From Lineus longissimus (Eukaryota; Nemertea; Pilidiophora; Heteronemertea; Lineidae), in assembly GCF_910592395.1 (NCBI RefSeq), contig NC_088324.1, forward strand, positions 9,078,953 to 9,142,952: 64,000 nt of DNA, written 5' to 3'. A model generated the notes under the pieces. The model had not been told where the DNA came from and did not search any database. It was given only the letters and a program-made list of their open reading frames with translations. Positions within the stretch are counted from its first letter, which is position 1. Each line of letters begins with the position of its first letter. Made by a program: the position numbers and the translations under genes. Below are positions 19,774-62,718 of this stretch, in pieces.

Positions 19774-19787
19774 CAGTAGAACCTCCC
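19774..19787. mobile_element. MITE end cut off at the start of the 680-bp satellite
   Basis: CAGTAGAACCTCCC, preceded by TA, runs directly into CCAAGATTTGGGGTG, the satellite unit. The rest of the MITE is absent, so the array edge lies within a former MITE copy. Confidence 0.65.
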
Positions 19788-22700: not shown

Positions 22701-24508
22701 TAACATCTATCAGATTATGTATCTATCATCAATATCCCGCATTTTCAGCGTTATATCACGCACAGTTTGCGGATGCAGACCACTTAAAAAATACCTTGTA
22801 CCCAGGTCTTACAGGCTTTTCAGTCCTATACATTCATGCTCATGGATGGTCATATGGGCCCTGTATCCAAGGCCCCTTTTTGAGTTTGATGGCAGAATAT
22901 TGCAAAAAGTTACCAAATATTTGAAAAACCATGAAGCGGTTGGAATTTTGAGCTGATTTTTGCATGCAGCATCTGTACGACATCAACAACTACATTGGCA
23001 GTGTTTTATTGGTTCTGACATGGTTAGATATCACTTATAACAATATATCATTTTGTGTCATTTTTGGATGGATTTTCAGGGCAAACACGAGCGTCGCTAA
23101 GATGCTAAAAATTTTGGAACGTAATGATAGATACATATTCTGATTGATACTAAAGCGAAATAGCGATATCAGTGCTAATTAACCATTTATTCTTCTAAAT
23201 ATCACGAAAATATCAACTTTTTAAAAAATATTTCTTGATGATATGGAAGTGAATGTCGGTCTGAGTACTGAACCAAGATTTGGGGTGAAAACATCAAAGT
23301 CTAGTTGATTGAGAGGGAATATCGTTTTCGTGATATTTTGAAGAATTACTGCCAAACCAACATTGACATAAAAATTTCACTTTAACATCTATCAGATTAT
23401 GTATCTATCATCAATATCCCGCATTTTCAGCGTTATATCACGCACAGTTTGCGGATGCAGACCACTTAAAAAATACCTTGTACCCAGGTCTTACAGGCTT
23501 TTCAGTCCTATACATTCATGCTCATGGATGGTCATATGGGCCCTGTATCCAAGGCCCCTTTTTGAGTTTGATGGCAGAATATTGCAAAAAGTTACCAAAT
23601 ATTTGAAAAACCATGAAGCGGTTGGAATTTTGAGCTGATTTTTGCATGCAGCATCTGTACGACATCAACAACTACATTGGCAGTGTTTTATTGGTTCTGA
23701 CATGGTTAGATATCACTTATAACAATATATCATTTTGTGTCATTTTTGGATGGATTTTCAGGGCAAACACGAGCGTCGCTAAGATGCTAAAAATTTTGGA
23801 ACGTAATGATAGATACATATTCTGATTGATACTAAAGCGAAATAGCGATATCAGTGCTAATTAACCATTTATTCTTCTAAATATCACGAAAATATCAACT
23901 TTTTAAAAAACATTTCTTGATGATATGGAAGTGAATGTCGGTCTGAGTACTGAACCAAGATTTGGGGTGAAAACATCAAAGTCTAGTTGATTGAGAGGGA
24001 ATATCGTTTTCGTGATATTTTGAAGAATTACTGCCAAACCAACATTGATATAAAAATTTCACTTTAACATCTATCAGATTATGTATCTATCATCAATATC
24101 CCGCATTTTCAGCGTTATATCACGCACAGTTTGCGGATGCAGACCACTTTAAAAATACCTTGTACCCAGGTCTTACAGGCTTTTCAGTCCTATACATTCA
24201 TGCTCATGGATGGTCATATGGGCCCTGTATCCAAGGCCCCTTTTTGAGTTTGATGGCAGAATATTGCAAAAAGTTACCAAATATTTGAAAAACCATGAAG
24301 CGGTTGGAATTTTGAGCTGATTTTTGCATGCAGCATCTGTACGACATCAACAACTACATTGGCAGTGTTTTATTGGTTCTGACATGTCTAGATATCAATG
24401 ATAAATATCACGAAATATCACGAAATGACAACTTGATCATGTTCTCAAAATATCAACATTATTTGAAAATTTTCTTGATGATATGGAAGACAATGTCAGT
24501 CTAAGTAC
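19786..24508 (+). repeat. Satellite of 682-712 bp units, about 6.7 copies
   Basis: The landmark CCAAGATTTGGGG (or a variant) occurs at 19786, 20492, 21204, 21909, 22591, 23273 and 23955. Spacings are 706, 712, 705, 682, 682 and 682. The last three full units lack about 23 bases near TATCACGAAATGACAACTTG and are almost identical; two encode the same 79-codon open frame, which suggests recent homogenisation. The final unit has a deletion near 24400. No protein was recognised. Confidence 0.92.
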
Positions 24509-29829: not shown

Positions 29830-32800
29830 AAATCACGATGACGCTGGTAGGCTCATGGGGGAAGTTACCCTCTAGGTTGAATTCTTCATAAACTCTCCAC
29901 AGGTGTCAACTGAGTAACAAGAAGGGGACTCCTATAGAGGAGGAAGAGGCTAGGTTACCCAGCTCCCCTCTAGGTAGGATTCTTCATAAACTCTCCACAT
30001 GTGTCAACTGAGTAACAACAAGTGGACTCTTATGGAGGGGGAGGAGGTTAAGTTACCCTCACCTCTAGGTAGGATTCTTCATTAACTCTCCACATGTGTC
30101 AAATGAGTAACAAGAAGGAGACTCTTATGGAGGTGGAAGAGGCTAAGTTACCCTCCCCTAGAAGTGGAATTCTTCCTAAACTCTCCACAGGTGTCAACTA
30201 ACTAAAAATAAGGGAACCAATAGGGAGGGGGAAGAGGCAAAGTTACCCTCTGAGTAGGAATCTTCATAACCTCTCTCCATGTGTCAACTGAATAACAAGA
30301 AGTGAACTCTTATGGAGGGAAGGAGGTTAAGTTACCCTTCCCTCTAGGTAGGATTTTTCACAAACTCTCCACAGGTGTCTACTAAGTAACAAGAAGGGGA
30401 CTCCTATGGAGGAGGAAGAGGCTAGGTTACCCAGCTCACCTCTAGGTAGGATTCTTCATAAACTCTCCACATGTGTCAACTGAGTAGCAAGAAGGGGACT
30501 CTTATGGGGGAGGGGAGGAGGTTAAGTTTCCCTCACCTCTAGGTAGGATTCTTCATCAACTCACCACATGTGTCAACTAAGTTTACAATAAGGGGATTCT
30601 TATGGAGGGGGAAAAGATTAAGTTTCCCTCACCTCTCAGTAGGATTCTTCATAAACTCTCCACATGTGTCTACTGATCGAGTAACAAGAAGGGGTCTCTA
30701 ATGGAGGGAAGGAGGTTAAGTTACCCTCACCTCTAGGAAGGATTCTTCATAAACTCTCCACATGTGTCAACTAAGTTACAATAAGGGGATTCTTATGGAG
30801 GGGGAAAAGATTAAGTTACCCTCATCTCTTAGCAGTATTCTTCATAAACTCTCCACATGTGGCAACTGAGTAACAAAAAGGGGACTCTTATGGAGGGGAG
30901 GAGGTTAAGTTTCCCTCACCTCTAGGTAGGATTCTTCATAAACTCTCCACCTGTGTCTACTGAGTGACAGGAAGGGGACTCCTATGGGGGAGGAAAAGGC
31001 TAGGTTACCCAGCTCCCCCCTAGGAAGGATTCTTCATAAACTCTCCACATGTGTCAACTAAGTTACAATAAGGGGATTCTTATGGAGGGGGAAAAGATTA
31101 AGTTACCCTCATCTCTTAGCAGTATTCTTCATAAACTCTCCACATGTGGCAACTGAGTAACAAGAAGTGGGCTCTTATGGAGGAGGAGGAGGTTAAGTTA
31201 CCCTCCACTCTAGGTAGGATTCTTCATTAACTCTCCACATGTGTCAACTAACTAAAAAGAAGGGAACCAATATGGAGGGGGAAGAGGCAAAGTTACCCTC
31301 TAAGTAGGAATCTTCTTAACCTCTCTCCATGTGTCAATTGAATAACAAGAAGTGGAGTCTTATGGAGGGAAGGAGGTTAAGTTACCCTTCCCTCTAGGTA
31401 GGATTTTTCACAAACTCTCCACAGGTGTCTACTGAGTAACAAGAGGGGGACTCCTATGGAGGAGGAAGAGGCTAGGTTACCCAGCTCCCCTCTAGGTAGG
31501 ATTCTTCATAAACTCTCCACATGTGTCAACTGAGTAACAAGAAGTGGACTCCTATGGAGGAGGAGGAGGAGGTTAAGCTACCCTCCCCTCTAGGTAGGAT
31601 TCTTTATAAACTCTCCACAGGTGTCTACTGAGTAACAAGAAGGGGACTCTTGTGGAGGAGGAAGAGGTTAAGTTACCCTCCCCTCTAGGTATGATTCTTC
31701 ATAAATTCTCCATAGGTGTCTACTGAGTAACAAGAAGGGGACTCTTGTGGAGGAGGAAGAGGTTAAGTTACCTTCACCTCTAGGTAGGATTTTTCATAAA
31801 CTCTCCACATGTGTCAACTAAGTTACAATAAGGGGATTCTTATGGAGGGGGAAGATATTAAGTTACCCTCATCTCTTAGTAGCATTTTTCATAAACTCTC
31901 CACATGTGGCAACTGAGTAACAAAAAGGGGACTCTTATGGAGGGGGAGGAGGTTAAGTTACCCTCACCTCTAAGTAGGATTCTTCATAAACTCTCCACCT
32001 GTGTCAACTGAGTAACAAGAAGGGGACTCTTATGGAGGGGAGGAGGTTAAGTTACCCTCACCTCTAAGTAGGATTCTTCATAAACTCTCCACCTGTGTCA
32101 ACTGAGTAACAAGAAGGGGACTCTTATGGAGGGGAAGGAGGTTAAGTTACCCTTCCCTCTAGGTAGGATTTTCACAAACTCTCCACAGGTGTCTACTGAG
32201 TAACAAGAATGGGACTCTTATGGAGGAGGAAGAGGCTAAGTTACCCTCCCCTCTAGGTAGGATTCTTCATAAATTCTCCACAGGTGTCTACTGAGTAAGA
32301 AGAAGGGGTCTCTTATGGAGGGAAGGAGGTTAAGTTACTCTTCCCTCTAGGTAGGATTTTCACAAACTCTCCACGTGTGTCAACTGAGTAACAATAAGGG
32401 GACTCTTATGGAGGAGGAAGAGGCTAAGTTACCCTCACCTTTAAGTAGGAATCTTCTTAACTTCTCTCCATGTGTCAATTGAATAACAAGAAGTGGAGTT
32501 TTATGGAGGGAAGGAGGTTAAGTTACCCTTCCCTCTAGGTAGGATTTTTCACAAACTCTCCACAGGTGTCTACTGAGTAACAAGAAGGGGACTCTCGTGG
32601 AGGAGGAAGAGGTTAAGTTACCCTCCCCTCTAGGTAGGATTCTTCATAAATTCTCCGCAGGTGTCTACTGAGTAACAAGAAGGGGTCTCTTATTGAGGGA
32701 AGGAGGTTAAGTTACCCTCACCTCTAGGTAGGATTTTTCATAAACTCTCCACATGTGTCAACTAAGTTACAATAAGGGGATTCTTATGGAGGGGGAAGAG

Positions 32801-34570
32801 ATTAAGTTACCCTCATCTCTCAGTAGGATTCTTCATAATCTCTCCACATGTGGCAACCGAGTAACAAAAAGGGGACTCTTATGGAGGGGGAGGAGGTTAA
32901 GTTACCCTCACCTCAAAGTAGGATTCTTCATAAACTCTCCATATGTGTCAACTTAGTAACAAGAAGGGGACTCTTATTGAGGTGGAAGAGATAAAGTTAC
33001 CCTCACCTCTAAGTAGGATTCTTCATAAACTCTCCACATGTGTCAACTGAGAAACAAGAAGGGGACTCTTATGGAGGGGGAGGAGGTTAAATATCCCTCA
33101 CCTCTAAGTAGGATTCTTCATAACCTCTCTCAATGTGTCAACTGAGTAACAAGAAGGGGACTCATATGGAGGAGGAAGAGGTTAAGTTACCCTCATCTCT
33201 TAGTAGGATTCTTCATAATCTCTCCACATGTGGCAACTGAGTAACAAAAAGGGGACTCTGATGGAGGGGGAGGAGGTTAACTTACCCTCACCTCTAAGTA
33301 GGATTCTTCATAAACTCTCCACATGTGTCAACTAAGTTACAATAAGGGGATTCTTATGAAGGGGAGGAGGTTAAGTTACCCTCATCTCTTAGTAGGATTC
33401 TTCATAATCTCTCCACATGTGTCAACTAAGTTACAATAAGGGGATTCTTATAGAGGGGGAAGAGATTAAGTTACCCTCATCTCTTAGTGGGATTCTTCAT
33501 AATCTCTCCACATGTGGCAACTGAGTAACAATAAGGGGATTCTTATGGAGGGGGAAGAGATTAAGTTACCCGCATCTCTTAGTAGGATTCTTCATAATCT
33601 CTCCACATGTGTCAACTAAGTTACAATAAGGGGATTCTTATGGAGGGGGAAGAGATTAAGTTACCCTCATCTCTTAGTAGGATTCTTCATAAACTCTCCA
33701 CATGTGTCAACTAAGTTACAATAAGGGGATTCTTATGGAGGGGGAAAAGATTAAGTTACCCTCATCTCTTAGTAGGATTCTTCATAATCTCTCCACATGT
33801 GGCAACTGAGTAACAATAAGGGGATTCTTATGGAGGGGGAAGAGATTAAGTTACCCTCATCTCTTAGTAGGATTCTTCATAATCTCTCCACATGTGGCAA
33901 CTGAGTAACAATAAGGGGATTCTTATGGAGGGGGAAGAGATTAAGTTACCCGCATCTCTTAGTAGGATTCTTCATAATCTCTCCACATGTGGCAACTGAG
34001 TAACAAAAAGGGGACTCTTATGGAGGGGAGGAGGTTAAGTTACCCTCACCTCTAAGTAGGATTCTTCATAAACTCTCCACATGTGTCAACTGAGTAACAA
34101 GAAGGGGACTCCTATGGAGGAGGTTAAGCCTCGAGGTAGGATTGTTCATAAACTCTCCATAGGTGTCAACTCCATAGGTGTCAATTCTTCATAAACTCTC
34201 CATAGGTGTCAACTAAGTTACAATTAGGGGATTCTTATGGAGGGGGAAGATATTAAGTTACCCGCATCTCTTAGTAGGATTCTTCATAATCTCTCCACAT
34301 GTGGCAACTGAGTAACAAAAAGGGGACTCTTATGGAGGGGGAGGAGGTTAAGTTACCCTCACCTCTAAGTAGGATTCTTCATAAACTCTCCACATGTGTC
34401 AACTGAGTAACAAGAAGGGGACTCCTATGGAGGAGGTTAAGCCTCGAGGTAGGATTGTTCATAAACTCTCCATAGGTGTCAACTCCATAGGTGTCAATTC
34501 TTCATAAACTCTCCATAGGTGTCAACTGAGTTACAAGAAGGGGACTCGTATGGAAGGGGAGGAGGTTAAG
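29830..34570 (+). repeat. 95-bp tandem array, about 50 copies
   Basis: The unit runs AACTCTCCACATGTGTCAAC, TGAGTAACAAGAAGGGGACT, CTTATGGAGGGGGAGGAGG, TTAAGTTACCCTCACCTCT, AGGTAGGATTCTTCATA. Length varies by a few bases. Sub-variants (CATGTGGCAACTGAG; AAGTTACAATAAGGGGATTC) alternate in runs, especially 32750-34000, which suggests block duplication. Nothing coding is evident. Confidence 0.93.
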
Positions 34571-36550: not shown

Positions 36551-38995
36551 ATGTTCAGATTTTTGACATGTACAGTATGAAAATGACAACTCTGACAAAG
36601 GACTGATACTGTATCCCCTCATTGCTATTGGTACATACACCGAGTTCTACCTCAAATGACAACTTACAAGTGAGGTTTGCGAAAATACCCACGGCTGCTT
36701 TGAAATCATCAAAATATTTACATATTCAACAGGCATCAGGAGGTACAGTGACACAAAGATCAGTTTTATATGTCAAAATCTTTCAAAATGTCTTGGAAAT
36801 TGGGAGACACAAACAACGTCAAGTAGATTGTTTGAATAGGTCTAAGTATTGTTACTTCTATTTCATGGTAAACTTCACTTGCCTGTGGAAATAGTGATAA
36901 TAGGGACTTTTGCAAAAAGTCTATAAACATCTTAACACCGAAGATTCTCGTGACCAATATAATTGTCATTTACAACATGTTTAAAGATACAGTGAGACGT
37001 ACATTAGTAAAGGTCATGGCCGATCACTGGAGGACCATATCTTATTCGTCACCATACAAAAGGGACATACATTTTTACCAGGGGGAGTTAGAAAAGCAAC
37101 GCCAGTGAAAAGCTTTGAAATGTCCCAGGATACAATAGGGCCGGACTCTTTTCCAGGGGGACATTTCCTACTGCTACACCGGCATTTTATATTCCTAATC
37201 GAGGTTCAGTTGAAGTGAGATCATTAGGTTACTCACCATTCAGTATTGAATCGTTTCCCAGGTTTTGGAGGAATCAACCAACAGGAGGGACGCCCATCCC
37301 CGATCATCATTGGCGTTTGACAGATTCCATTGAGGAGTACAGGCATCCCATTCGTTATCGGACCAATCGTCAAAAGGGCAAGCGTGCGAAAACTGAAAGT
37401 AAAAATGACACACTCGTAGGATATGAGGGATGTTGATTCGGAGAGGGCTGCGATGACGTCAGCAAGTCTTCCCCATGAATGCGATATAATAACAATATGG
37501 AAGGAATCACGTGACATGAGGTCACCACGCTACCTCATCTTGCATTGATCACCGTACTACGACACAATTATTGGGAGTGTTTGAGACATGGTAAGTAACC
37601 TTGGAGATACAGATTCTCACAAGGGGCGATATACTATAAGGCATGGAGACGAAGATTCTCACAGGGGACTAATATACGGTGAACCTTGGAGATTAAAGAT
37701 TATGACAAGGGACTGATGCACTGTATGCCCTCGAGATGCAGAGTCTCACAAGGGACTGCTATACAGTGAGGCTGGGATATAAAGATTCTGACAGATGTTC
37801 AGATTTTTGAGATTATACATTTACAGTATGAAAATGACAACTCTGACAAAGGACTGATACTGTACAAGCCTTGGAAACGACGATTCTTATCCCCACATTG
37901 TTATTGGTACATGCAGTCCTACCTCAAATGACAACTTACAAGTGAAGTTTGCGAAAATACCCACGGCTGTTTTGAAATCATCAAAACATTTACGTATTCA
38001 ACAGGCAACAGGAGATACAGTGACACAAAGATCAGTTTTATACATGTACAGCGGAACCTCCCTTAGCGGACACCTCTCTATTAAGGACAGCACTTGTCAG
38101 TCCCGAGGATGTCCTTAATAGAGAGGTTCTACTGTATATCAATATCTTTCAAAATTCGGAGGCACAAACCACGTCAAGTAGATTGTTTGAAAAAGTCTGA
38201 GTATTGTAACTTCTATTTCATGGTAAACTTCAATTGCCTGTGGAAATAGTGATAATAGGAACTTATGCAAAAAGTCTATAAACACCTTAACACCGAAGAT
38301 TCTCGTGACCAATGTAATTGTCATTTACAACATGTTTAAAGATACAAGTGTTAGTATTGGGTCTATCAGTGAGGCGTACATTGTAGTGAAGGTCATGGCC
38401 GATCACTGGAGGACCATATCTTATTCGTCACCATACAAAAGGGACACACATTTTTACCTGAGGGACAGTTAAAAACGCAACACCAGTGTAAAGGTTTGAA
38501 ATGTCCCAGGATAGAATGTCCGTGTAACGAAGAATACAATAGGGCCAGACTCTTTTCCAGGGGAACATGTCCTACTACTACACCGGCATTGTATTTTCCA
38601 AATCAAGGTTCAGTTGAAGTGAGATCATTAGGTTACTCACCATTCAGTATTGAATCGTTTCCCAGGTTTTGGAGGAATCAATCAACAGGAGGGACGCCCA
38701 TCCCCGATCATCATTGGCGTTTGACAGATTCCATTGAAGATTACAGGCATCCCATTCGTTATCGGACCAATTGTCAAAAGGACAAGCGTGCGAAAACTGA
38801 AAGTAAAAATGACACATTCGTAGGATATGAGGGATGTTGATTCGGAGGGGACTGCGATGATGTCAGCAAATCTTTCCGATGCATGCGATTTTATAACAAT
38901 ATGCAAGGAATCACGTGACATGAGGCCACCACGCTATACCTCCTTTTGCCGTACTAAGGCACAATTAGTGGGAGCGTTTGAGACATGGTAAGTTA
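36350..38995 (+). repeat. 1.25-kb tandem duplication (36350-37600 and 37601-38995)
   Basis: Both copies run from the end of the 43-bp array, through TATGAAAATGACAACTCTGAC and GGTTACTCACCATTCAGTATT, to TTTGAGACATGGTAAGT. Copy 2 holds an 86-bp MITE absent from copy 1. A shared 73-codon open frame has five amino-acid changes and one silent change between copies, so it does not look selected as protein. Confidence 0.85.
38049..38134. mobile_element. Internally deleted TA-flanked MITE inside duplication copy 2
   Basis: It runs from CAGCGGAACCTCCCTTAGCG to GAGAGGTTCTACTG, with TA before (38047-38048) and after (38135-38136). It is missing at the matching site in copy 1 (AGTTTTATATGTCAAAATC, near 36765), so the insertion is younger than the duplication, or copy 1 lost it. 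Confidence 0.85.
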
Positions 38996-41416
38996 TTTGA
39001 AAATGTGGTATCGCCGACCATGAGTTAAAGCGGTCACAGTATACCAAAATATCACTCTCCCGGTCTTCGGTCCTTCCTCTTTTGAGACATCTCCGTTTAA
39101 ATTCTCCCTGTCAGTAAACCGAGGTTGACTTCCTTGACAACAATGGCTCCCAATGACGATGCGTGGAGAATGCTAAAATATAGTTGGCAGGATAGGTTTG
39201 CAAGATCACCTGATGAGCCGTCACATTGTAAACCCCTTATTTCTATTTATACATTGGCAGTATTTTGCTTACCATAAACACATTCCTTGTCTTGGACTTT
39301 CTCCGCCATCGTCTGGACGAAATCAACATCATCAAGGATGCCATCAGTTTTTAAAAGCATGAGCGGACATTCCGTACACCATGGACCAAGGTAGGACGGT
39401 TGCTAAAATCTCGTACATCATGAACCGAGGTAACATATGGTCATGACTGAAATGATAAATATCAAAAAAGGTCAGTTGATTGACGAGTTGCATAGGCGGA
39501 TCTAGTACATGTACATTTTTTGTAATATTGGATAGGGGTGGGGGGGGGACGCAGCTTCACCCATCAGAGAGCAATGGAGGGGTGATGTGTGAAATGTATG
39601 TGCCAATAGTCGTTTTCCTGGCATCTGAGGGCTAAAATTCTTCTTGTGATGAGGCACCCTGAAAAAGTATGGCTGTCCGCCCCGAAAAGGGGGTGGGGGT
39701 GGGTGTATCTTTATCAGAATGTTTCATATGGAAATCCATCCACTTACAGAGTCGTTGACCACATCTATTGTTCAGTACCCGTCTTCTGTGGTGACGGGTT
39801 ATCCAACATTTCAGTCCTCAATACAATTTGTTTCGCGAAATGACCAGGGCCCGATTCTACACGACTAAAATAGTTTACATTGCACCGGTCGGAGGAAACG
39901 GTAACAAACCCGCAGCAATCAAACAAAGGATCCTCTTAGTCATAGCCTCTAGAACCATACCATAATTGGTCAGAATACAATAATGCAGGACACTTTTTCC
40001 AGGGGGACATTTTCTACTTTTCTACCTGTAAAAGTAAAAAGTGTCCCCCCTGGAAAAAGTGTCCGGCCCTATTGTATTCTGCAATATGGTTCTATAGAGA
40101 CCCTGACAGTCAATAGCTCAGAGATTGAAGCGCATAATAGAATCCTTTGTTCCCGGACATTTTATCCTAGGACATTTTAAACTTCTACACCGGGACAGTG
40201 GTAGCTCTGTATATTATGTACACTCTGTCCCTCTGTACATTATCTACACATTCCTATCATTTAGCACAGAGTGTCCCGGGTATTCTGCAGTTGTTCCCTA
40301 ACCCGTTGTTTGGGTTCTTTGACCCGGCAGAGAGCTACACTCTAGGCCCTCCCGGCCTCGACCATTTTCTTGTCGTTGTAAGAATTTTTCAGAATAACAA
40401 TTCAAATACTGATGTTTGATTGGTATTTGGAAATGCGCTAATTAGCATTCTGCTTCTAATTAAACTCAGAAGATATGGGAAGAAGGTGATTCTGCAGAAA
40501 AGCAAGTCCATTTTGCTCTCTTCGGCAGGGCATGGTGTCAATGGTACGGGCCGGTAACATCCATATTGTCGGCCATTAAATTCTCAGATTATACATTTTT
40601 AGCGAATATTTCTTTGTCAAAAGAAACTAGGACGGCCTTTTCAGATTACTTCATAAAATGTGATATTTAGTTTATAAGAACATACCTGAATAAAGTGCTA
40701 TTTTTCGGTCGAGTCGGTAACAAATCGAAAAATTCGCTCCACGTGTGTAAAATCATGGTCGCTTTCCTTGCTGGAATATTCCTTGGTGCCACGCTGGCAG
40801 GTCATGTGACCCTGGCCATGGCCGGCCATTGGTTGGTTGATTGACTGGGATGACAAGGCCTTTTGGGTAATAATACTTCATGAATAGAAGCACACTCATT
40901 GAATTCGAATTCATATTTCACTACACTATTGTGTCCGGAGTCACCTCAACAATATAACATGTGGTCAGTTTCAGGTTTTAAAATCGCAGTGTGGCTATCC
41001 TAAGCATCCAGTTACCTCAGAGAAAACGAGATACATGTAATCCTTCCATGAATCCTTCTCCTCCGAGGCGCGGATCCAAGGGGCGGGGGGCACCAGACGC
41101 ATCCCCCCCCTCAACAATTTGTGAAAAGCCTTCGAAATTGACCATGAAATTTTGACGGAAAACACCAGGAATTTTGATGAGAAATGCATTGCACGCCCCC
41201 TCTTTTTCCCGCTCCTGCCTCCGCCACTGCCACGTTCTATATCTTCCCAACGCATCTTCGAGATTCATGATTACATTGGGACCATACACCGAATATGAAT
41301 ATGTCCAAGATTGAAATAACAAGAAAAAGAAATTATCTTGAATATTTTACTACATGTATAACATGTTACTGAACGGTATCTGGTACATCAAGTCGGAATA
41401 CCGGTGCCATTTGGAG
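38996..41416. other. Intergenic, hairpin-rich, no gene recognised
   Basis: It contains a G tract near 39540, the hairpin element at 39971-40081, and a GC-rich repeat-like paragraph near 41060-41240 (CGCCCCCTCTTTTTCCC, CTTGGATCCGCGCCTC read on either strand). No exon chain was recognised. The 3' UTR of the minus-strand peptide gene may extend here. Confidence 0.45.
39971..40081. repeat. Hairpin element with CAGAATACAATA ends
   Basis: The left arm CAGAATACAATA...GGACACTTTTTCCAGGGGG pairs with the right arm CCCCCCTGGAAAAAGTGTCC...TATTGTATTCTG around a loop near 40022-40029. Diverged pieces (CAATAGGGCCGGACTCTTTTCCAGG) occur at 37121-37181 and 38502-38583, so it is a local repeat family. Confidence 0.7.
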
Positions 41417-43964
41417 TTATTCGTCTTGCACTGGAAAAACAAATCACATACGGTGTGGGTTAGAAGGCCACTTTTTTCTCTTCAAGGATGAAAGCCTCTC
41501 CTTTCAAGAAACACCCCGGCCTCCTCGGAAGAACGATCTCTCATCTATAAAAATCCACCCTCCCATTTGACGGGGAGAGCTAAAGATTATGCTGAGATAT
41601 AATTGCTTTTTTCATTCATGTAACATTTGCAAGTCCCTTTATATTCAACTCATCGAGGGTTTTCACGATAAGCTGTTTCCTGGGGTAACCCCCAAACGCA
41701 GATGGAATTAGGTATACTTCAAAATCCCTTCTTAAAAAGGTCAGTGGAAAACTGTATCCCCATCTTCGTTGCCATGCTTACCGCCCCCCCCCCCCGCCCC
41801 CGAACACATAACGTGTTCAGGAATTTGACTTTTGAGGATGACTGCATATTGTAACCCTCCGCCTACGCCTTGCATATCGGCCCGCGTACGCCGACCCCCC
41901 CCCCCCCCCCCCCCGCCCCCAAACGCATAACGTGTTCAGGAATTTGACTTTTGAGGATGACTGCATATTGTGACCCTCCGACGAAAACAATACTTACTGC
42001 GTTTTGGCCTCTGAGCATGAGGTGGCGTTTTTACAGAAGCTGCAGGCAAAAACAGAAATCAGAATGTTCAGACTAATCCAAAATTTCATCTAAGCTGGGT
42101 TCCCAGCGCACACACATCGTGTTTGAGAGTCCCCCGGCCTGGGTGGAATCAGGTTTACTTCAAAATCCCTTCTTAATGAGGTCAGAGGAAAACATCTTGC
42201 CCCCCCCCCCTTATCTTTGTTGCCTTGCATATCTGCCCGCGTACGCCGACCCCCCCCCCCCCCACCCCCCGCCCCCAAACGCATAACGTGTTCAGGAATT
42301 TGACTTTTGAGGATGACTGCATATTGTGACCCTCCGACGAAAACAATACTTACTGCGTTTTGGCCTCTGAGCATGAGGTGGCGTTTTTACAGAAGCTGCA
42401 GGCAAAAACATAAATCAGAATGTTCAGACTAATCCAAAATCTCATCTAAGCTGGGTTCCCAGCGCACACACATCGTGTTTGAATGTCCCCCGGCCAGGAT
42501 GGAGTCAGGTTTACTTCAAAATCTCTTCTTAAAGAGGGTCAGTGGAAAACTGCATGACCCCCCTTCTTCCATCTTCGTTACCTTGCATATCTGCCTGAGG
42601 ACCCCCCCCCCCCCGAACGCAGAACGTCTTCAGGAGTTTGACTTCTGAGGATGACTGCATATTGTGACCCTCCGACGAAAACAATACTTACTGCGTTTTG
42701 GCCTATGAGCATGAGGTGGCGTATGCACATAAGCTGCAGGCAAAAACAGAAATCAGAATTTTCAGACTAATCCAAAATGTCATCTAAGCTGGGTTCCCAG
42801 CGCACACACATCGTGTTTGAGAGTCCCCCGGCCCGGTTGGAATCAGGTTTACTTCAAAATCCCTTCTTGTAGAGGTCAGAGGAAAACTGCTTGCCACCCC
42901 CCCTCCAATCTTCGTTGCCCCGCATTTCTGCCCACGTACGTCGCCCCCCCCCCCCGCCCCTAAACGCATAACGTGTTCAGGAATTTGACTTTTGAGGATG
43001 ACTGCATATTGTGACCCTCCGACGAAAACAATACTTACTGCGTTTTGGCCTCTGAGCATGAGGTGGCGTTTTTACAGAAGCTGCAGGCAAAAACAGAAAT
43101 CAGAATGTTCAGACTAATCCAAAAGGGTTCCCAGCGCACACACATCGTGTTTGAATGTCCCCCGGCCAGGATGGAATCAGGTTTACTTCAAAATCTCTTC
43201 TTAAAGAGGGTCAGTGGAAAACTGCATGCCCCCCCCCCTTCTTCCATCTTCGTTACCTTGCATATCTGCCTGAGCACCCCCCCCCCCCCCCCGAACGCAG
43301 AACGTCTTCAGGAGTTTGACTTCTGAGGATGACTGCATATTGTGACCCGCCGACGAAAACAATACTTACTGCGTTTTGCGTCAGCATGTCGTCGATTTTT
43401 ATCAGTAGCTGCAGGGAAGAATAGAAATCAGAATATTCAGACTGACCCAAATTCTCATCTGAGCTGGCACACACATCGTGTTTCAGAGTCCCCCGACCCG
43501 GATAGTATTCGGTATACTTCAAAATCCCTTCTTAAAGAGGTCAGTGGAAAACTGCATCCCCCCTCCCATCTTCATTGCCCTACACACCTGCCCGCGCATT
43601 CCCCCTGAAACGCAGGACGTGTTCAGGAATTTGACTTGTGAGGAAGACTGCATATTCGGCCCGCGCACCCGACGAATGGGCCAAAAATATGATATGACAC
43701 CAGACCGACTTAAAACTTGTTAAAATATTCATTTAGTTGAAACACGGTTGACAGTGTTTAAGTAACCATTCAAGCGACAAACCAACCGCTTCGTTCGGCT
43801 ATGCTGCAGAATGAACTATAGTTCGTTCGTAAGTGTTTTTTTTCAATCACCGCATCACCAATGTGCCAACGAAGAAGCCCATACGAGCGGTACTTACTGA
43901 AGTCGCCCACCGTCAACGTCACCAGAACAACCAAGAGAAGTAAGGTCAATACGGCGATTTTCAT
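41417..43964 (-). CDS. Secreted multi-copy peptide precursor built from tandem mini-exons (neuropeptide-like)
   Basis: The first coding exon (43964-43898) gives MKIAVLTLLLLVVLVTL..., a clear signal peptide, and ends in phase 1 at TTCA|GTAAGT. Five mini-exons follow: 43408-43370 (39 nt) and 43080-43039, 42733-42692, 42395-42354, 42039-41998 (42 nt each). Each lies between TTTGCCTGCAG- or CTTCCCTGCAG-type acceptors and A|GTAAGTATT donors, all phase 1. The phase set by the signal exon reads TTDKNRRHADAKR, then TSVKTPPHAQRPKR three times with one variant TYVHTPPHAHRPKR in second place. Every repeat ends in dibasic KR; four end in the furin-type RPKR. The proposed last exon (41430-41417, MQDE-stop) is the weakest part. 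The total would be 95 aa, with no cysteines. I know no named family with this repeat. Function as a hormone, neuropeptide or other secreted peptide is inference. Confidence 0.65.
41700..43690 (-). repeat. Tandem array of 314-353 bp units carrying the mini-exons
   Basis: The landmark TTCAGGAATTTGACTT (or a variant) recurs at about 41817, 41938, 42291, 42630, 42978, 43309 and 43623. A full unit holds one mini-exon with its splice sites, a shared intronic paragraph, and a C tract of 10-20 bases on the plus strand. Units at both ends (about 41820-41880 and 43620-43680) have lost the exon. Confidence 0.9.
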
Positions 43965-44004
43965 GCTGAAATGCGTTGCGAGTTTTCTTCACGATCAAGA
44001 CGAG
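43898..44004 (-). other. Exon 2 of the peptide precursor: short leader plus signal peptide
   Basis: The acceptor TTTTTAATTTTTTTCAG ends at 44005. Forty untranslated bases lead to the ATG at 43964, and the exon ends at 43898 before GTAAGTACC. The signal peptide has one Lys and then a long Leu/Val core. The upstream TTTCAG right before the ATG is a second possible acceptor. Confidence 0.6.
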
Positions 44005-45043
44005 CTGAAAAAAATTAAAAAGCAATCGTTCACCGTCGCCGAGGTTTATGCGTCCAAAATTCGAAATTTGAGATGTCCGATCACATTCAATCATTCGGTT
44101 TGAATACAAATTTCAACATTGCTGCTGTTTATACCGATATACATGTAGTTCATCACATGACAAATTTCATAATGGCTCAACATGGAACTTGCAGGAAAAT
44201 TAAGCTGCTGAAATAGGGGCTTCCGCATGACCCGATTCTAGAAAAGAAACTGAGAAAACAGACGTTAGAAACAGTGTAAAGGCCTTCGGCAGTGGAGGTA
44301 GCTGCAACATCCAAATGTGTGCGAAAATAGATAACGTTGGAAAGATAATTTATCTGACACACATATTTCTTTTTGTATTTCTGTAATGAGCGCCTCTGTC
44401 ACTATCGTATCAGTCTCAGCTAATGTCATTTAAATATGCATATATTCCAGTCGCTGCATGGCTCACCAAGCTATAAATGCAGGAAGTATAGCGGCCCGGT
44501 GTAACATATGTGGTTGTTTCCCATGTGTCAGTGTTTCCAAACAATAGGCAGCTAGAGAGACCACGACTTTTCAATAGGGGGGATACACAGAAAAACTTGT
44601 CAATCTATTTTTGAGCGTTCCCAAACAATGAGGGGAAACACTCAAAAACAGAAACACTCAAAAACATTACACCGGTGCAAATTTTCCGTGCGCTACGTGG
44701 TGTGCTCTCAAAAAAATGTTTGTCGTTACTGTGAGAATTATTGGGTTAAATGCACACATTTGCCACAAATTTTATGTCATCCCAATCAAAGATTGGCCAA
44801 TTTCTGGCCTAATGGCGGGCTTCTTGTCCCTGAGACCTTAAACGCTGAATAACCTATGCATTAAACCGACTTATGATTCAGAAACGGCGGCTAGAGTGGC
44901 CTATAGGAAATAAGCATATGGAATATTTGTTTTACGTTTACACCCTTTCTCCCAAAATGTTTTAAAGAAAATTGATCCCCGATGCCATTACAGCAGCCGC
45001 TGAAAATCGAGACGAGCTCGAGATGCTCAATTTGAGAACTTAC

Positions 45044-48376: not shown

Positions 48377-51300
48377 CTAAGTCTTTCTGAATTTCGTGTA
48401 ATGGTCATTACCATGTTCATCGGGCGGGATGTACTGTTTGAAGTTGTACGAGACCTCCTTCTTCTCCGACCTTCGCTCACTTCTGCTGCTGCTGCGGGTG
48501 TTGGTTGCCGCCATGTTGTCCGTGTCCACTTGCGCCATCGCAAAGGGCATCCCGTGCACCTTGGTCATGTGTTTGGTGAAGCACTGGATTCGCCGGAAGG
48601 GCATTCCACACTGCGTGCACTTGTAAACGCTCCATTTGTTTCCAAACGACACCATCTCCTTCCTCGGCCATAGTTTTAAAGTGTAGTCATTCTTGCCGTT
48701 TTTCGGGTCAGTTTTCTTTGATTTTATTAGCTTGAATGTCATCTGGCTATATGCGGGAGCCTGGATATTTGCGCGGGTTTCTAAGATGCTCTCCTGGACC
48801 GGTGAAGTTGTCGCCATTGACGATGGGCAGACGTTATACGGGCTGGAGTTGTTCATGTTGTTCATGGAGCTTGATCGTCTGTTGTGACGTTCCCTTGGGG
48901 GCGGCACTGGCACACGGATCCTCTCTGGCGGCACTGGCTCATTGGTTTTCTCCGGTGGCGCCGGCACAGGGATCATCTCCGGGAATACCGATGGCCTTGG
49001 AAGGATGTGGACAGGACGGGTGATGGGTGGAGTCGCGGCAGCAGCGAGTGATTCAAATGCTGGTTCTGGTTTCACTTCCTCTACTTGTGGACTCTGAGTG
49101 CACCCCTGGTCATCCCGTGTTTGACCATGACCATACACGGGCTGAACCTGAGGTTTGTCAATTCGATGCATGAGTTCAAGGTGGCGCAGCAGAGACCAGC
49201 GGTGACCAAAATATAGTGAGCAGGCGTGACAGATCCACCTCGCTTTGAACGTGTCGTTTGGACGATTCATCTCACCAGTAGGGCTCAGTGGGATATTCGG
49301 AGTTTCAATATTATGAATTATTTGCAAATGTTTCATCAGAAGAGACCGTTGGTTGTAAACCAGGCTACACAAATGGCAAATCCACTGAGCTCTTGGTGGG
49401 TTGGCGGCTTCACTTGCTCTGACTAACTGTAGCGCGGAAAATGTTCCCGAGACGTTATCGACCTTGACCTTGGCTTTATCACGATCGGGGTAGAACATAC
49501 TACCATGAATGTCCAGGGCCGGCTCCTTCGGAGTGACCTTCACCTTGTGCTTGTAGCTACGGTGTCTCTGCAAACTCTCTGGCATGGCAAATGACCTTGA
49601 GCACTTGTCACATGGAAATCTCTTACTTTTTGCTAGGTGGAGCTCCTTGATGTGCTTGCTCAGCGATTTCTTCGAAGTGAACTCTTGTTTACAGAATGAG
49701 CAGCAGACGAAATGATCGAGACGGTACCCATCACCACCGCGATCTTTCTTCGATTTTTTCGGGCATCTTTTATATGTGTGGATCGCCGCCAAGTGACTCC
49801 TCAGATCGCTCTCTTGCGAGTATTTCCTGAAGCACGTTTTGCAAGAATGTCGTCTGCTTTTCCTATCACGCTGAAGATACTTCAGATAGCGTCCTTTGTG
49901 CGCTAAGAAAGACTGGTAGTGATATTTGTGAGTTTTCTTCTCATGTCTCACTAGGAAAGACTTGAACTGAAAGTGTTCCGGACATACATCGCATTTGTAT
50001 TCGAACCGCTCACCAAGGTCACCCTTGAAGTCAACAACGCTAGCAGCAGCTCTTGCAGCAGACGGACTAACAACAGATTCGCAAGACACTTGTCTATTTA
50101 TGGATTTCCCGGCACCAGACTTGGACGCGGAGGCAATATTCAGCCGCAGCGCCCCGTTAAATGGCGGGGTCTGATAACCAAAGTAACAGTCATCTGGCGG
50201 TTCTGATTTGACCTTGACCTCCGATTTGACCTTAGAGAGGTCAATTGGCTGATTTGCGTCCTGATTTGTGTCCTCGGCGGGAAACCGCTGCGTTCTCTGC
50301 TTCCGACGATGGACTGTTCGTTCGGGGTGCGAATTTAGATAGTTCGCCACCTCAGGGTCACCTTTGCTGAAATCCAAGATACCGTTTGGACTTCTGCGAC
50401 TCTTTGCTGATCTTGGAGCCTCTTCCGCGACTTCCGCCTTGATGTCAGCAGCGGCCGTCCTTAATTCCTCTGTCGGTATTTTTCCTAGTTGGCCACCAGG
50501 TGGCACTTGCATACCTGGCAAGAACCCGAGAGCCGGCAGTTGATACTGAGGTAGACCTGCAGCGGGGAGCACGAAATTCTGAAGTCCATTGACACCTTGC
50601 ATCATGAGGTACATTGGTTGAGTATTTGGAAGAGCCTGAGATCCGGAGGGGGTAGTACACTGGCCACCACTCTGATTTAATAGAGAGGCGGTACTACAGG
50701 TCAAATTCGAAGCACCAGCTGGAAATACTGGAGCGGCATTGATCAACTTTTGTTGATCCGTAGAGTGCACCTGGACTGGTGCATTCTGCGTACTGTCTGG
50801 ACTCTGGGAGACGCTCTCGCCACGGGAGCGCCCGACCGCATCGAGGGCAAGATTAACGTCCGAAGAAAGGTTCATGGGCTTGTCAAGTGGATGCGACATC
50901 ATCTGGGCCATTTCGGCAATCTTCCGACCACGTTTGATAATGCTCCTTGCGTGTTTCAGATAAGAATCCACCTGAAGTACAGTGGCGGCGTTGACGATCT
51001 CCTCCACGCACGAGTAATGAACCGCCGGATCTATTTTCAAACCGTACATATAGTCCAACAGCAACCCCAGTCCTTTCGCCGTGACATCCTGCAGAAAGAA
51101 CTCGCATTTCGCTTTTAAGTCCTCCTTGGATAGACTCTTGAAATACTTGCTGGTCATGACGAGAACGAGTTTGTGTGCCGAAAAACTAAGCGTGACTCCC
51201 TCAGGGGATCGGACTTGGAGGACGGCGTCGCATAACTTGTTTTCGCGGCGGAAGTCGTTGAAGTGGGTGACGAGATTCCGGAGGCTGCCGAGAGGGTTCT

Positions 51301-53664
51301 CTTTGTCTTCTTCTTCCACTGGCCTGAAAAGAGAAAAACAGAGAAATTGTAAATAAAAAGTATCTCGATCTAGGCAAAAAAAGGTTTTTCCTAATCAACT
51401 GCCGCTACAGGAAAGGTATGCTTGGTCCAAGCGGTTATTAGGTAGATGTAATGGAAAATTACATTCGCCAGTAAGAATCGTGTCTTGTGTTTATACATCC
51501 GCTTCCCACCGAAGCGGAAAATGAGAATTAACAAACACCCGCTGGGGCCGAGCGTACCGACTTTTTTTCGGAGGCGAGCACAGGACTCTTGTGCTGTCCG
51601 TTGAAAAAGTCGCGATGGAATGCCTCTCATGGAGAAACTATTGTGAAAAAAACCGTTAGCAAATTCCCGCAACGTGGAACAGTCGTATTTTGTCCTTTGT
51701 CTTTCGTCTATTGTCTTTTGTCTTTTTAGTGGTGCAAATGTACTTCGTACACTGTAGGCCGGGAAATCGAGAACCCGTGAAACCGCGCGTCCCGCCGATT
51801 ACCACCCTCATTAGTCACCTGTGTGCGCCGTACTTTAGCCGCATCATTTGAACCGTTTGAGTAAAAATCAGTATCTGACCGGGTCGATCAGTCACCCGCA
51901 CCTGACGGTTGCCATGGAAACAAAGGTAACAACTCTTTCCATATACGGGCAAAAGAAGATCCGGCAGACGATCGTCATGTATACTCCCACGCATGATTAG
52001 AAAGCTATATTAATCACGAAAGAACCAAAGATTGTCAGGAAGGATAGGTCGGAGGCGAAATTCAAGGAAACCATTATATACAATGCATATATACCGGTAC
52101 TACAGTTTGTTATTAATTCAATCGATGAGTATATATCCCGTAACCGTCGAAGACCTGTGCGACAGTACCACACTTGACTGATAATAGCAAAAGTATCCAA
52201 GCGAGCATCGTAGTATGCCAGTAGCAGCAGTGTATGAGTACGACCGACTGGTGCTCATTAGTATAGTAACTAAACGGCGAAATGAATCACTTTTGAATTG
52301 CTTCGCAGTGCAGTGAATGAATTTACGTTAGCGCTCGTCTAGACAATATTAAACCTCTCTACTCAGCTATTAGTAGTAACCTGACCCGACTGTTAGCCTA
52401 TACTTATGTACCGGAGAAATAAAATACCACACGGTGGCCAGAGAGGGAATGCCATGAGAGGATAAAAATAGTTTTCTTTGTGCAACAACGATGATCAGTT
52501 GAGATGCGAATGTCAGGCATCAGCGGATGAACATGATGAAGCAATAGATAATGGATAACTGATGGAATACTTTAGGCCGTTATGCGGAATTGACACTCGC
52601 TTCTTTTGCACATCCCTTTAAATTAAGTTTAAATCCCTTTAAATCTTCAGGATTTCTGCGAAGCCCCGTCATAACCCCGTCTGGCCGTACTTATATCATC
52701 ATGCTTCTAGCTAACTGCCCCTTATCTCTACCATGCTAATAAAACCGATGTTAAACTTACATAAACCGTACAAAAGGCGAAGCAGACATTTTCAACCGAT
52801 TTCCACCATATTTTAACAGCGAATGCCAAAGAAACAGCCAGAGACGCAGAAGGAAAGCTCAGGTGAGCGCCGCCAAAAATAGCAGGATGAGTTAGACGGG
52901 ATCCTGATATTCAGGTTTCAAACTTACTTGACCTAAGATACATACACATTCACAGACGAAAGAACACACTGGCATGAGCTCAAGTTAGGTGCGCTTCAAC
53001 GCTAGTATACGTTCCAAGTTATCTAGTCTGCTGTACCTGTACAAAAACCTCGGACGTTACGCTGTCGTTCGTGTTCAATTTGGTAATGAAACCGTCTAAG
53101 CAAAATGTCGTGGATGGCCTGTTCATTTAGGCATACACTGGCAGACTGGCAGGGGATAGTAGAGCCATTGGTTTTTTTCTCAACTTGATATTAACGTGGC
53201 CGCTTCCTTAAAATATACAGTATGGTCAGTGACTTTCAGCAGAGACATTTAGCCGCAGCCAAGTTTTCGGGGACCGCATGTTCCGCGGGACCTCTGGTTA
53301 CTGCTGCTCAAGGTAATACCCTAGGCCCTGAGTACCCCCCTCCCACATTTAGGTCGTAGATTTTATGGGCTATAAACCTGAGAAATAACCTGAATCATTA
53401 GGAGAAAAAACTTTTCGGCACAACCAGAAAGGATTAAGTAACCTACCTCGCCTGCCTTAGAATATACTGTAAGAATTCTTTATCCCTTTTCATCCCAAAC
53501 GCATGTTTTTTATCCTCCCATTCGCGGCTTACGTTCCACGAGATCGTGATTTGCTTACGCATGGCGCGGCGTTGTCGCTTGAGATCGTCGGGTAAGCGTT
53601 TTCGGCCAGCTCCAGCCCGCCTGCCTCCCCGTAATGACAGTTTCTTCAAGGTATCGTGGTACAT
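48377..53664 (-). CDS. BTB/POZ domain zinc-finger protein, seven C2H2 fingers
   Basis: Probable nuclear transcription factor of 1054 aa, two exons: 53664-53447 and 51323-48377. The large exon has no ATG before its BTB domain (it opens CCA GTG GAA) and follows an acceptor (TTTCTCTTTTCAG). The first exon has an ATG, an in-frame TAG 9 bases upstream, and a phase-2 donor (GCGAG|GTAGGT) that fits exactly, reading ILRQAR-PVEEEDKENP. N-terminal part: a basic stretch (GGRRAGAGRKR), then SWNVSREWEDKKHAFGMKRD, like a short motif I recall from invertebrate zinc-finger proteins. BTB: about 89-204. Fingers: about 515-539, 565-588, 611-635, 642-665, 720-743, 769-792, 973-996. PMNLS (222) and PIDLS (432) resemble CtBP-binding motifs, and VKSE/VKPE fit sumoylation sites. 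Orthology is unclear. Confidence 0.88.
51326..53446 (-). other. Single intron of the BTB zinc-finger gene
   Basis: About 2.1 kb between the N-terminal exon and the BTB exon. No other exon or known repeat was recognised in it. Confidence 0.6.
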
Positions 53665-57377: not shown

Positions 57378-57733
57378 CAATGGAACCTCCCTTAGCGGAC
57401 ACGTCTCTATTAAGAACAACCTCTCTATTAAGGACAACCTCTCTATTAAGGACAACCTCTCTATTAAGGACAACCTCTCTATTAAGGACAACCTCTCTAT
57501 TAAGGACAACCTCTCTATTAAGGACAACCTCTCTATTGAGGACAACCTCTCTATTGAGGACAACCTCTCTATTGAGGACAACCTCTCTATTAAGGACAAC
57601 CTCTCTATTGAGGACAACCTCTCTATTGAGGACAACCTCTCTATTAAGGACACTAGTTTTAGTCCCAAATTGGTTGTTTTCATTTAGACACTGGTCAGTC
57701 CCGAGTGAGTCTTTAATAGAGTGGCTCTATTGT
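57378..57733. mobile_element. TA-flanked MITE with an internal 18-bp expansion
   Basis: The ends CAATGGAACCTCCCTTAGCG and AGAGTGGCTCTATTG and the CCCAAATTGGTTGTTTTC core place it in the CAGTRGAACC family. Between about 57403 and 57654, the piece CTCTCTATTAAGGACAAC is repeated about 14 times. As 18 is a multiple of three, open frames of 109-225 codons (SLLRTT, DNLSIK, SIERLS repeats) appear by chance. Confidence 0.85.
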
Positions 57734-59946: not shown

Positions 59947-62718
59947 TCACAGTTCATCTTTGGCATTTGAGCGTTGATCTCCCGAATCTCCTGTCCTTGA
60001 ATTTAAATTATTACTATTATCTACACTATCGCCACCTATATGTTGTTCATGATCACTAGTCCGATCGTTTACAGTTTGTGAACTTGCACCGTCCTGATCT
60101 CGAGGCGCTCCCCGCCCCCCAACAACCCCTGGAACTTTTGGCATCATTTCATTCGGTGATACCCTATCCGTATCCGTCGGCGTTTCACCGGATTCTTCCT
60201 GCGTAGCATCCTGCCCCGATTCTCCCGGAGGAATGTACATGACACCATTCTCTACGATGAATTCCCCGTCTTTTAGATTCTGATTGTCTTTCGCTTCACG
60301 AACCCACGCACCGCCGTCGTCCGGCCGGACTTCTCGATCCTCCTGCAGTTCCTTCTCCGTCGCGTAATGCTGCCTCGATTTAGCATCATCGTTAGTAGCA
60401 GACGACTCTTGCCGGCCGTCGGACACCTTCGGAATAGTAATGGTCGCAACCGCCGCTTCAATCATACTCTTCACGGCGTTAAAATAATCGTTATTATACG
60501 CCCCCATGTCGAGCACCTCCCCCTGCAACAACCCCATCAACTCTTTACTCAAATCGCCCAAATTCGCATCCTTCGACGTCCGCATTAATTTCTCCAAATC
60601 GACATAAACATGGTGGTCGTCATTTTCCGTCTTTTTAATCCGCAGAATACTTTTGTCATCACTTGGTTCGATTTCCTTCTCCTTGATTTCACGTCCGTCC
60701 CCGACCGTCTTGATCTTGATCTGCACCCCGCCAAGATTGATCGTTGTGACACGTTCGCCCGAGGTTTGAGATTCCGTCTCCTTCGTCGAGGATTCGGGAA
60801 CAGATTCGACCTTGACCTGAGACTCCTGAGGAATGTGAGAGCGACGCGATTGCTTGCCTAACAGTTCCTTGACAACAGTTTCTGGAACGTATAAGAGTAA
60901 ACAAGTCAGTTCAAGAACTAAATATAGATGAAATACAATCAATAAAAGGCCTACTCTCTTCAAACAAATTTAAAGTGAACTAGAATTTGAAAATGTTGCG
61001 TGAGTGTGTGATAAATATAATTTTCCACAATGCTATTTTGTAGACTAACATACAAATACTATAAGTGCCACTTCAATTCTTTTAAAGAGGCGCAGATAAC
61101 ATGAAGTGCATGTGCTCTTGGAACCTCCTAATGGAATCTTTGTTGAAGCTTATTAGAAAATAGTATGTCCTTGAAACTGCTCAGGTTTATGAATGAGAGC
61201 TTGTGCCTGCCTAAACATGCACCCTTTGCCTTTCAAAACTCCCCATTTACATGCAAGCATATCATGATAGGTTTCCTTTCAGAAAATGCACTGGGCAGAA
61301 AACTGAGGTGAATCTAATTTTACCTTGTGGTTTAGGATGATGCGATAGCAACACTTGCAGAACGGGTGTCTGCTTGATGGCTTCATGGAGCTTGCGCCCC
61401 TCTGCTGTGAACAGGAAGACCATCGGGATAGTGATGTCATGTTTCCCGTCGCCTGACATGGCGAAGAGTAATGATGCGGTACTGCTGCTGTCTGGGTTAT
61501 TGTCTGGAAGATAATGATACGTGTTACCTGATAAAATATAACGACAGTGCTCATGATAGCGATAATGATAATGAAAGGATAACTTTTTGATAGCATAATT
61601 GTATAGAAATGAAAGGATGTTGGACAAGACTGGACTGTATCATTAATTGATTGATAAGACTGACATCAATTCAACAGTATATGTCCACTAGGCTTGTTGC
61701 CTTGGACAGGACACCTTACTTACCAACAACAATGCCCCCTATACCACCATGTTCTTGGATCTTTCTTGCCTAGAAATCATAATAATTGAGACACATTTAG
61801 ACAGTGAAAAGTGGTATTACTATAAGGCCCTATAAGTCTTTTAACCTCCTCTGTAAATTGAGTTGACAAATTTTTTCAACGTGGTTCTTATTTGCACAGA
61901 GATGAGCTATGTATATTTGCCAAAATTTTGGCCAAAGACCCTGATTTCCTATTGTAAAGCAGGCACCCACCTTGTCTATGAATAGACACATTCCCCGCTC
62001 AACGACGACAATCTTTCCCTTCACATCTGCGGCGTTGACAAACTCTCCACAACCGCTATAAGGATCACCGACCACGACCTGCCCGATCACGCCCTCAGAG
62101 TTCATCAGCTCCATACCAAACTGGGCAGGCCCCGCGGAGAGATGAATGCCACCGAAAAACGGGGGGCTGATTAACTGCACTGAGCGAGGTTCTTGTTGTG
62201 CTGTAAGGAGGAAATAAAAGGTTTGTAATATTCATGAATTTAGAATACAGTAGAACCTCTTTATTAAGGACACCCTCGGGACTGACAAATGCTGTCCTTA
62301 ATAGAGAGGTGTCCTGATTAGAGAGGTCAAATTGAATGGAAACAACCAAGTTGGGACCAAAACTAGTGTCCTTAATAGAGAGGTTGTCCTTAATAGGGAG
62401 GTGTCCGCTAAGGGCGGTTCCACTGTAATTCTTACTAGAGCTTGCACTTTTCATATTATCGGGTTGTTGGGAGAGACTCCCGCCTTGTATAACTCACCTT
62501 GAGGCTGCGCCTGTGTCTTCGAAATCTCAATCATTTCCTGCATAAACAACAACCCATCCTCTCCGTCTTCTACAGACACTGCATCAGCCGCTGTATGAAG
62601 AAGCTGGACACGGCCATCTTTCATTGTGATTATCCTGATCCCCATACGTTTCAAGTCATCCAACTGGGCCTTGTTGCCAGCGATGAAATCGTGAGCGCGG
62701 AGACGTGAGACACGGGCA
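59947..62718 (-). CDS. EDEM3: EDEM3-like ER mannosidase, C-terminal part (PA domain, KDEL); 5' end missing
   Basis: EDEM3 is an ER-lumen mannosidase-like protein of glycoprotein ERAD. Five exons: 62718-62498, 62200-61971, 61769-61724, 61503-61324, 60881-59947, phases consistent, giving the last 536 residues. First comes SARVSRLRAHDF and MGIRIITMKDGRVQLLHTAA, which follow the catalytic domain. A PA domain runs over exons 2-4: FGMELMNSEGVIGQVVVGDP, GKIVVVERGMCLFIDKARKI, GGIGGIVVDNNPDSSSTASL, FAMSGDGKHDITIPMVFLF. The long last exon is hydrophilic and acidic and ends NAKDEL, the ER-retrieval signal EDEM3 carries and EDEM1/2 lack. For exon 4 I chose the acceptor at 61503, since VVDNNPDSSS fits the family better than one 19 bases upstream. 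The catalytic domain lies beyond the window edge. Confidence 0.9.
62248..62425. mobile_element. Full-length TA-flanked MITE in an EDEM3 intron
   Basis: It runs from CAGTAGAACCTCTTTATTAA to GGCGGTTCCACTG, with TA on both sides. The whole order matches the copy at 9940-10099, with one extra TTGTCCTTAATAGGGAGG unit. It lies in the intron between 62498 and 62200. Confidence 0.82.

Follow-up and report, generated by a model that had tools for sequence, protein, structure and literature searches.

A candidate Lineus longissimus gene encoding a secreted multi-copy peptide precursor, each peptide in its own mini-exon

The DNA between positions 41417 and 43964 of the stretch of Lineus longissimus sequence that was analysed (the window, 64,000 nt) is read here, with a probability of about 0.7, as a gene for a secreted multi-copy peptide precursor that would be processed into short peptides, with one mini-exon per peptide. 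When joined, the predicted minus-strand exons give an intact frame of 288 nt in seven exons, encoding 95 amino acids in the order signal peptide MKIAVLTLLLLVVLVTLTVGDF, TTDKNRRHADAKR, TSVKTPPHAQRPKR, TYVHTPPHAHRPKR, TSVKTPPHAQRPKR, TSVKTPPHAQRPKR and MQDE. The signal exon, the KR ends, the shared phase and the in-frame stop are seen in the DNA itself, and the splicing of the seven exons is predicted from it. The species is a heteronemertean, and an assembly of 391 Mb has been published for it (PMC8593623). The candidate gene has the following features:

44128..44133, minus strand: TATAAA, a possible promoter element about 165 nt upstream of the ATG and the sole TATAAA on that strand in 43965-44700
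43898..43964, minus strand: signal exon, 67 nt, encoding MKIAVLTLLLLVVLVTLTVGDF and base 1 of a Thr codon, with the donor GTAAGTACC
43370..43408, minus strand: mini-exon A, 39 nt, encoding TTDKNRRHADAKR, the divergent unit
43039..43080, minus strand: mini-exon B, 42 nt, encoding TSVKTPPHAQRPKR
42692..42733, minus strand: mini-exon C, 42 nt, encoding TYVHTPPHAHRPKR
42354..42395, minus strand: mini-exon D, 42 nt, encoding TSVKTPPHAQRPKR
41998..42039, minus strand: mini-exon E, 42 nt, encoding TSVKTPPHAQRPKR
41701..41861, minus strand: copy of part of the repeat unit that lacks an exon, within the last intron, 79% alike over 177 aligned columns
41417..41430, minus strand: coding part of the predicted terminal exon, 14 nt, TGCAAGACGAATAA, encoding MQDE and the stop
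41346..41351, minus strand: AGTAAA, a putative variant poly(A) signal 66 nt past the stop

An earlier note on this DNA had described a signal exon ending in phase 1, followed by five exon-like copies of 39 or 42 nt, each symmetric 1-1, and all of these were recovered at the positions claimed. As the signal exon ends in phase 1, this phase is dictated for the mini-exons. Phase 0 includes a stop in B, D and E and phase 2 a stop in A and C, and phase 1 alone is open in all five, which the note had described as open in this phase. Taken alone, the open phase is weak evidence, because phase 1 also stays open in 67% of the mutants simulated from the common exon. The KR end claimed for every mini-exon is present in 5 of 5, and the RPKR form in 4 of 5.

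By a simple ad hoc acceptor score, the acceptors of the mini-exons are equalled by only 15, 63 or 119 of the 7627 AGs in the window, and that of the terminal exon by 212 of the 7627. The donors of all five mini-exons read GTAAGTATT, as described, and fit the consensus on the intron side (GTAAGTAT or GTAAGTAC), but match none of the three consensus bases on the exon side. With a donor matrix set up for the analysis, 261 of the 7175 GTs in the window equal or exceed a mini-exon donor, and 492 of the 7175 equal or exceed the signal-exon donor. The predicted gene is least certain in its terminal exon, the acceptor of which, at 41430, is the closest to the array of the six that score at least 8.5 in 38000-41990. 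Neither AATAAA nor ATTAAA was found in 40000-41417, i.e. within 1.4 kb downstream of the stop, and this counts against the gene. The introns of the array contain minus-strand runs of G of varying length (41770-43295), which may affect splicing or be a simple repeat.

Both strands of the window and 40 dinucleotide shuffles were scanned for ATG starts that combine a strongly hydrophobic core with GTAAGT in frame. The only such start in the window is that of the signal exon, against a mean of 0.025 per shuffle (maximum 1), which supports the predicted N-terminal signal peptide. Ignoring the donor, six hydrophobic starts were found in the window, as compared with a mean of 1.225 per shuffle (maximum 3). 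The scan is not a clean test, because its thresholds were set once the gene was already known. Folding of the RNA of 42354-42733 gave a z of 0.61, and 70 of 100 shuffles fold equally well; thus no structural role of the RNA is indicated.

Each repeat unit consists of an intron and an exon together, and the units are spaced 328-356 bp apart. Mini-exons B, D and E are identical. Relative to them, mini-exon C (42733-42692) has 5 of its 42 bases changed: four lie in the three altered codons, which turn S, K and Q into Y, H and H with no indel, as reported earlier, and the fifth change is silent. Mini-exon A differs from the common exon B at 11 of 39 aligned bases and by a 3-nt gap. Hence the peptide occurs four times and not five, so that the claim of one peptide for each of five mini-exons has to be corrected; units B to E are the four copies of T[S/Y]V[K/H]TPPHA[Q/H]RPKR. 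By codon position, the differences number 3, 4 and 4 between A and B, and 1, 1 and 3 between C and B, and this scatter over all positions counts against the gene.

The introns alternate in two types. Those after A and after C differ at 4 of 258 sites and those after B and after D at 16 of 269, whereas the four pairs across the types show 24 to 28 differences over 256-270 sites. Exons B, D and E are identical, although the intron that precedes E departs from the one preceding B at 24 of 261 sites and from the one preceding D at 27 of 274. The array is flanked by a partial intron copy after it, and by the diverged unit A and its upstream intron before it. In the simplest history, a single block duplication would have copied intron 1, B, intron 2 and C into intron 1', D, intron 2' and E, and the array would have grown by tandem duplication of intron-plus-exon units, including this one two-unit block.

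Exon and intron divergence were compared with poly-G columns excluded, the ten pairs being not independent and the p values uncorrected. The D-E pair favours exon conservation (0 of 42 exon sites versus 27 of 274 intron sites, p=0.034), the exon is the more diverged in the A-C pair (14 of 39 versus 36 of 236, p=0.0058), and none of the remaining eight comparisons reaches 0.05. For the exon bodies as a whole, conservation relative to the introns is mixed and not clearly higher. Exon conservation was therefore rejected as proof of coding, and constraint is claimed only for the KR, the splice sites and the frame. The mixed result somewhat weakens the coding case, and is compatible with a fast-changing peptide body. 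The sole length difference among the exons is 3 nt, while the indels between intron copies are of 1-24 nt and mostly not multiples of three.

No relative of the chain was detected. A protein search with the 95 residues covered 702 candidates (about 52-166 aa) and gave no match at E<=10, nor did a chain extended to 263 aa with its own units and scored over residues 1-95 (2495 candidates, about 145-460 aa). The PDB search gave no match up to E 10, and the two Pfam matches, EphA2_TM (0.18) and DUF1932 (2.6), are both far below the cut-off. The earlier statement that no named family was recognised thus agrees with the protein, PDB and Pfam searches within their cut-offs, and there is no sequence homology to a known neuropeptide or hormone family by protein searches at E<=10 or by Pfam cut-offs. 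The letters of the peptide were found in no paper of the literature searched. Rfam and tRNA scans of the window found 0 and 0. The best tblastn match in the window outside the gene has E 0.78, and therefore no further copy of the peptide was seen there; for the signal part this search is weak, because its own site scores only E 32. That no relative was found in any species among the searches counts against the gene.

A neighbouring single open frame at 48377-51394 (48380-51394 as matched) encodes 1005 aa with BTB and C2H2 zinc-finger domains, and its product is 100% identical, over 98% of the 1005 residues, to a BTB zinc-finger, ZBTB49-like protein of L. longissimus (the one hit among the best 7998 candidates scored). 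As the same database holds this neighbour and nothing at E<=10 for the precursor, the gene is probably without annotation as a protein. The absence of an annotated precursor, though the neighbour is present, also counts against the gene.

Several other features were observed in the window. A tandem array at 19786-24508 consists of units of about 680-710 bp, in six full copies and one partial copy that are 92-97% alike to the first; its period exceeds that covered by the TRF run, and the opposite strand carries a related stretch of 113 bp at 6491-6603. A 95-bp tandem array at 29869-34120 (44.8 copies) gives way to arrays of 42-43 bp, which extend to 36511. A 37-bp minisatellite occupies 12112-13920 (48.7 copies, 92% matches) and an 18-bp array 57404-57652 (13.8 copies, 97% matches), the unit sequence of the latter recurring near 62293-62406. 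Minus-strand frames at 59947-62738 include a PA domain (61833-62231) and one that ends in KDEL (59947-60969), and may belong to an EDEM3-like ER mannosidase gene. Exons resembling a CoA-transferase at 7.5-10.5 kb were considered and rejected, as none of the three frames has a Pfam match.

The reading as a processed precursor is favoured by the intact seven-exon frame, by a single phase open in every unit, by the rarity of the hydrophobic start and of acceptors as good as those of the mini-exons, by the exon length difference of 3 nt, by the identity of exons B, D and E, by the animal source that the neighbouring frame demonstrates, and by a KR end and a donor that are the same in 5 of 5; the repeated peptides are bounded by dibasic sites in each unit. 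Prohormone processing involves convertases, which cut after RPKR or KR, and carboxypeptidases, which take off basic residues only. The seven exons would be spliced into one frame, the signal peptide would direct the chain to the secretory pathway, a proprotein convertase, of the furin type or another, would cut after each KR (four of the five sites being RPKR), and a carboxypeptidase would then strip K and R. The predicted products are three copies of TSVKTPPHAQRP and one of TYVHTPPHAHRP, plus small spacers; the calculated MH+ is 1318.7226 for TSVKTPPHAQRP and 1412.7182 for TYVHTPPHAHRP, as compared with 1065.5687 for TSVKTPPHAQ. With the cut placed after RPKR and only K and R trimmed, the mature peptide would be TSVKTPPHAQRP or TYVHTPPHAHRP and not TSVKTPPHAQ, the product named earlier, which was rejected since it needs cleavage before RPKR. 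An RR within the first unit could be a further cleavage site. The secreted multi-copy precursor proposed in the earlier note thus stands as the best reading of the sequence, with its mature peptide and its copy number (four, not five) revised.

Because each unit is a symmetric exon, gain, loss or skipping of units would alter the number of peptides and keep the frame. Control of dose by exon skipping may be a consequence of this arrangement. It is doubtful, though conceivable, that dose and composition are set at the level of exons, one gene yielding an adjustable number and mix of 12-mers; one-peptide exons would then be gained or lost by unequal exchange between near-identical introns, and skipped or included in splicing.

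For the processed precursor, extracellular signalling of a neuropeptide- or hormone-like kind is tentatively taken as the leading use, at somewhat less than an even chance overall. It is slightly favoured over defence on general plausibility, and both uses fall inside the probability given above for a processed precursor. No Gly for amidation precedes a dibasic site in the 95-aa chain, its units ending in RPKR or DAKR. A role in defence, as an immune or mucus peptide of the proline-rich antimicrobial type whose copies raise output, is a possibility of lower standing. Each peptide of honeybee apidaecin has an exon of its own, and such precursors have been proposed to serve in amplifying the response (PMC3415428), and the epidermal mucus of the worm yields peptide toxins, of another family (PMC5864730). 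The units are Pro-rich, Cys-free and without the amidation Gly, and their exon bodies vary roughly as much as the introns, all of which would suit such a peptide. However, the predicted 12-mers hold just one or two K or R, no Pfam match lies above the cut-off, and the 95 residues include no EAEP-type spacer of the kind also present in apidaecin.

It is unlikely that there is no gene, and that a minisatellite of 340 bp has copied splice-like sites and a short open phase beside a chance hydrophobic start. Because the copies share everything by descent, the sites and frames that recur in them do not count as separate pieces of evidence; other tandem arrays abound in the window, neither exons nor introns are consistently the more diverged, no annotated protein was found at E<=10, and openness of phase 1 is the expected outcome in most simulated mutants. 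Against this, the phase is set from outside the array, by the signal exon, and is the only one that every copy leaves open, and unit A keeps its frame, KR and splice sites despite the 11 changes in 39 bases and the gap. A chain secreted uncut, as a short repetitive basic protein varied by mini-exon use, is improbable. The symmetric mini-exons do make up 207 of the 288 coding bases (72%), and schistosome micro-exon genes encode secreted proteins varied by splicing (PMC5825161), but the KR that ends all five units, and the RPKR of four of them, resemble convertase sites.

If expressed, the gene would give a venomous phylum a further peptide, one for which no relatives were detected, and would suggest that genes of very small exons may escape annotation. 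It would also provide a compact natural case of how tandem exon duplication sets peptide copy number, and is suited as a test case because the units, introns and splice sites are near-identical and exact peptide masses can be predicted.

The design of one exon per peptide has precedents, but the searches detected no relative of the peptide itself. Among the titles listed in literature searches for this design or for exons in tandem, none was a direct precedent. Nemertean neuropeptide precursors with several peptide copies likewise have a signal peptide and repeated peptides between dibasic sites; in a survey of them, MS of L. longissimus larvae confirmed 46 peptides flanked in this way (PMC8557429). 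No family named in sections 5 and 6 of that paper points to the motif, but its precursors are listed in supplements, where the motif may stand under another name. A search of its text for words starting with RPKR or PPH gave 0 and 0, letters within longer sequences being missed by such a search. The chain differs from amidated neuropeptides by the lack of an amidation Gly and, with no Cys in its 95 residues, from the alpha-nemertides, the cystine-knot peptides of the worm (PMC5864730).

Schistosome micro-exon genes, of which about 80% consists of short symmetric exons of 6-36 bp, also combine such exons in series with a signal peptide and a secreted product (PMC5825161). Here the exons are of 39-42 nt and comprise 72% of the coding region as compared with about 80%, so that the candidate falls outside the definition of these genes, while its exon symmetry and modular logic are alike; its near-identical units with convertase sites are a further difference.

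In honeybee apidaecin, several exons each encode one apidaecin peptide (PMC3415428, citing earlier work), and the same source discusses amplification by multipeptide precursors and describes an EAEP-type spacer for ant hymenoptaecin, the precursor of which it likens to apidaecin. Like the apidaecin gene, the predicted gene would encode a secreted multipeptide precursor with one exon per peptide (PMC3415428). It differs in its KR ends, in the lack of the EAEP spacer and in belonging to a ribbon worm rather than an insect, and is set beside apidaecin by description, no relation in sequence having been found. Nasonia nasonin-6 also has one exon for each repeated domain, its units being defensin-like domains without protease processing signals (PMC2853521). 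In the yeast pheromone precursor, the number of repeats alters pheromone output (PMC5850478).
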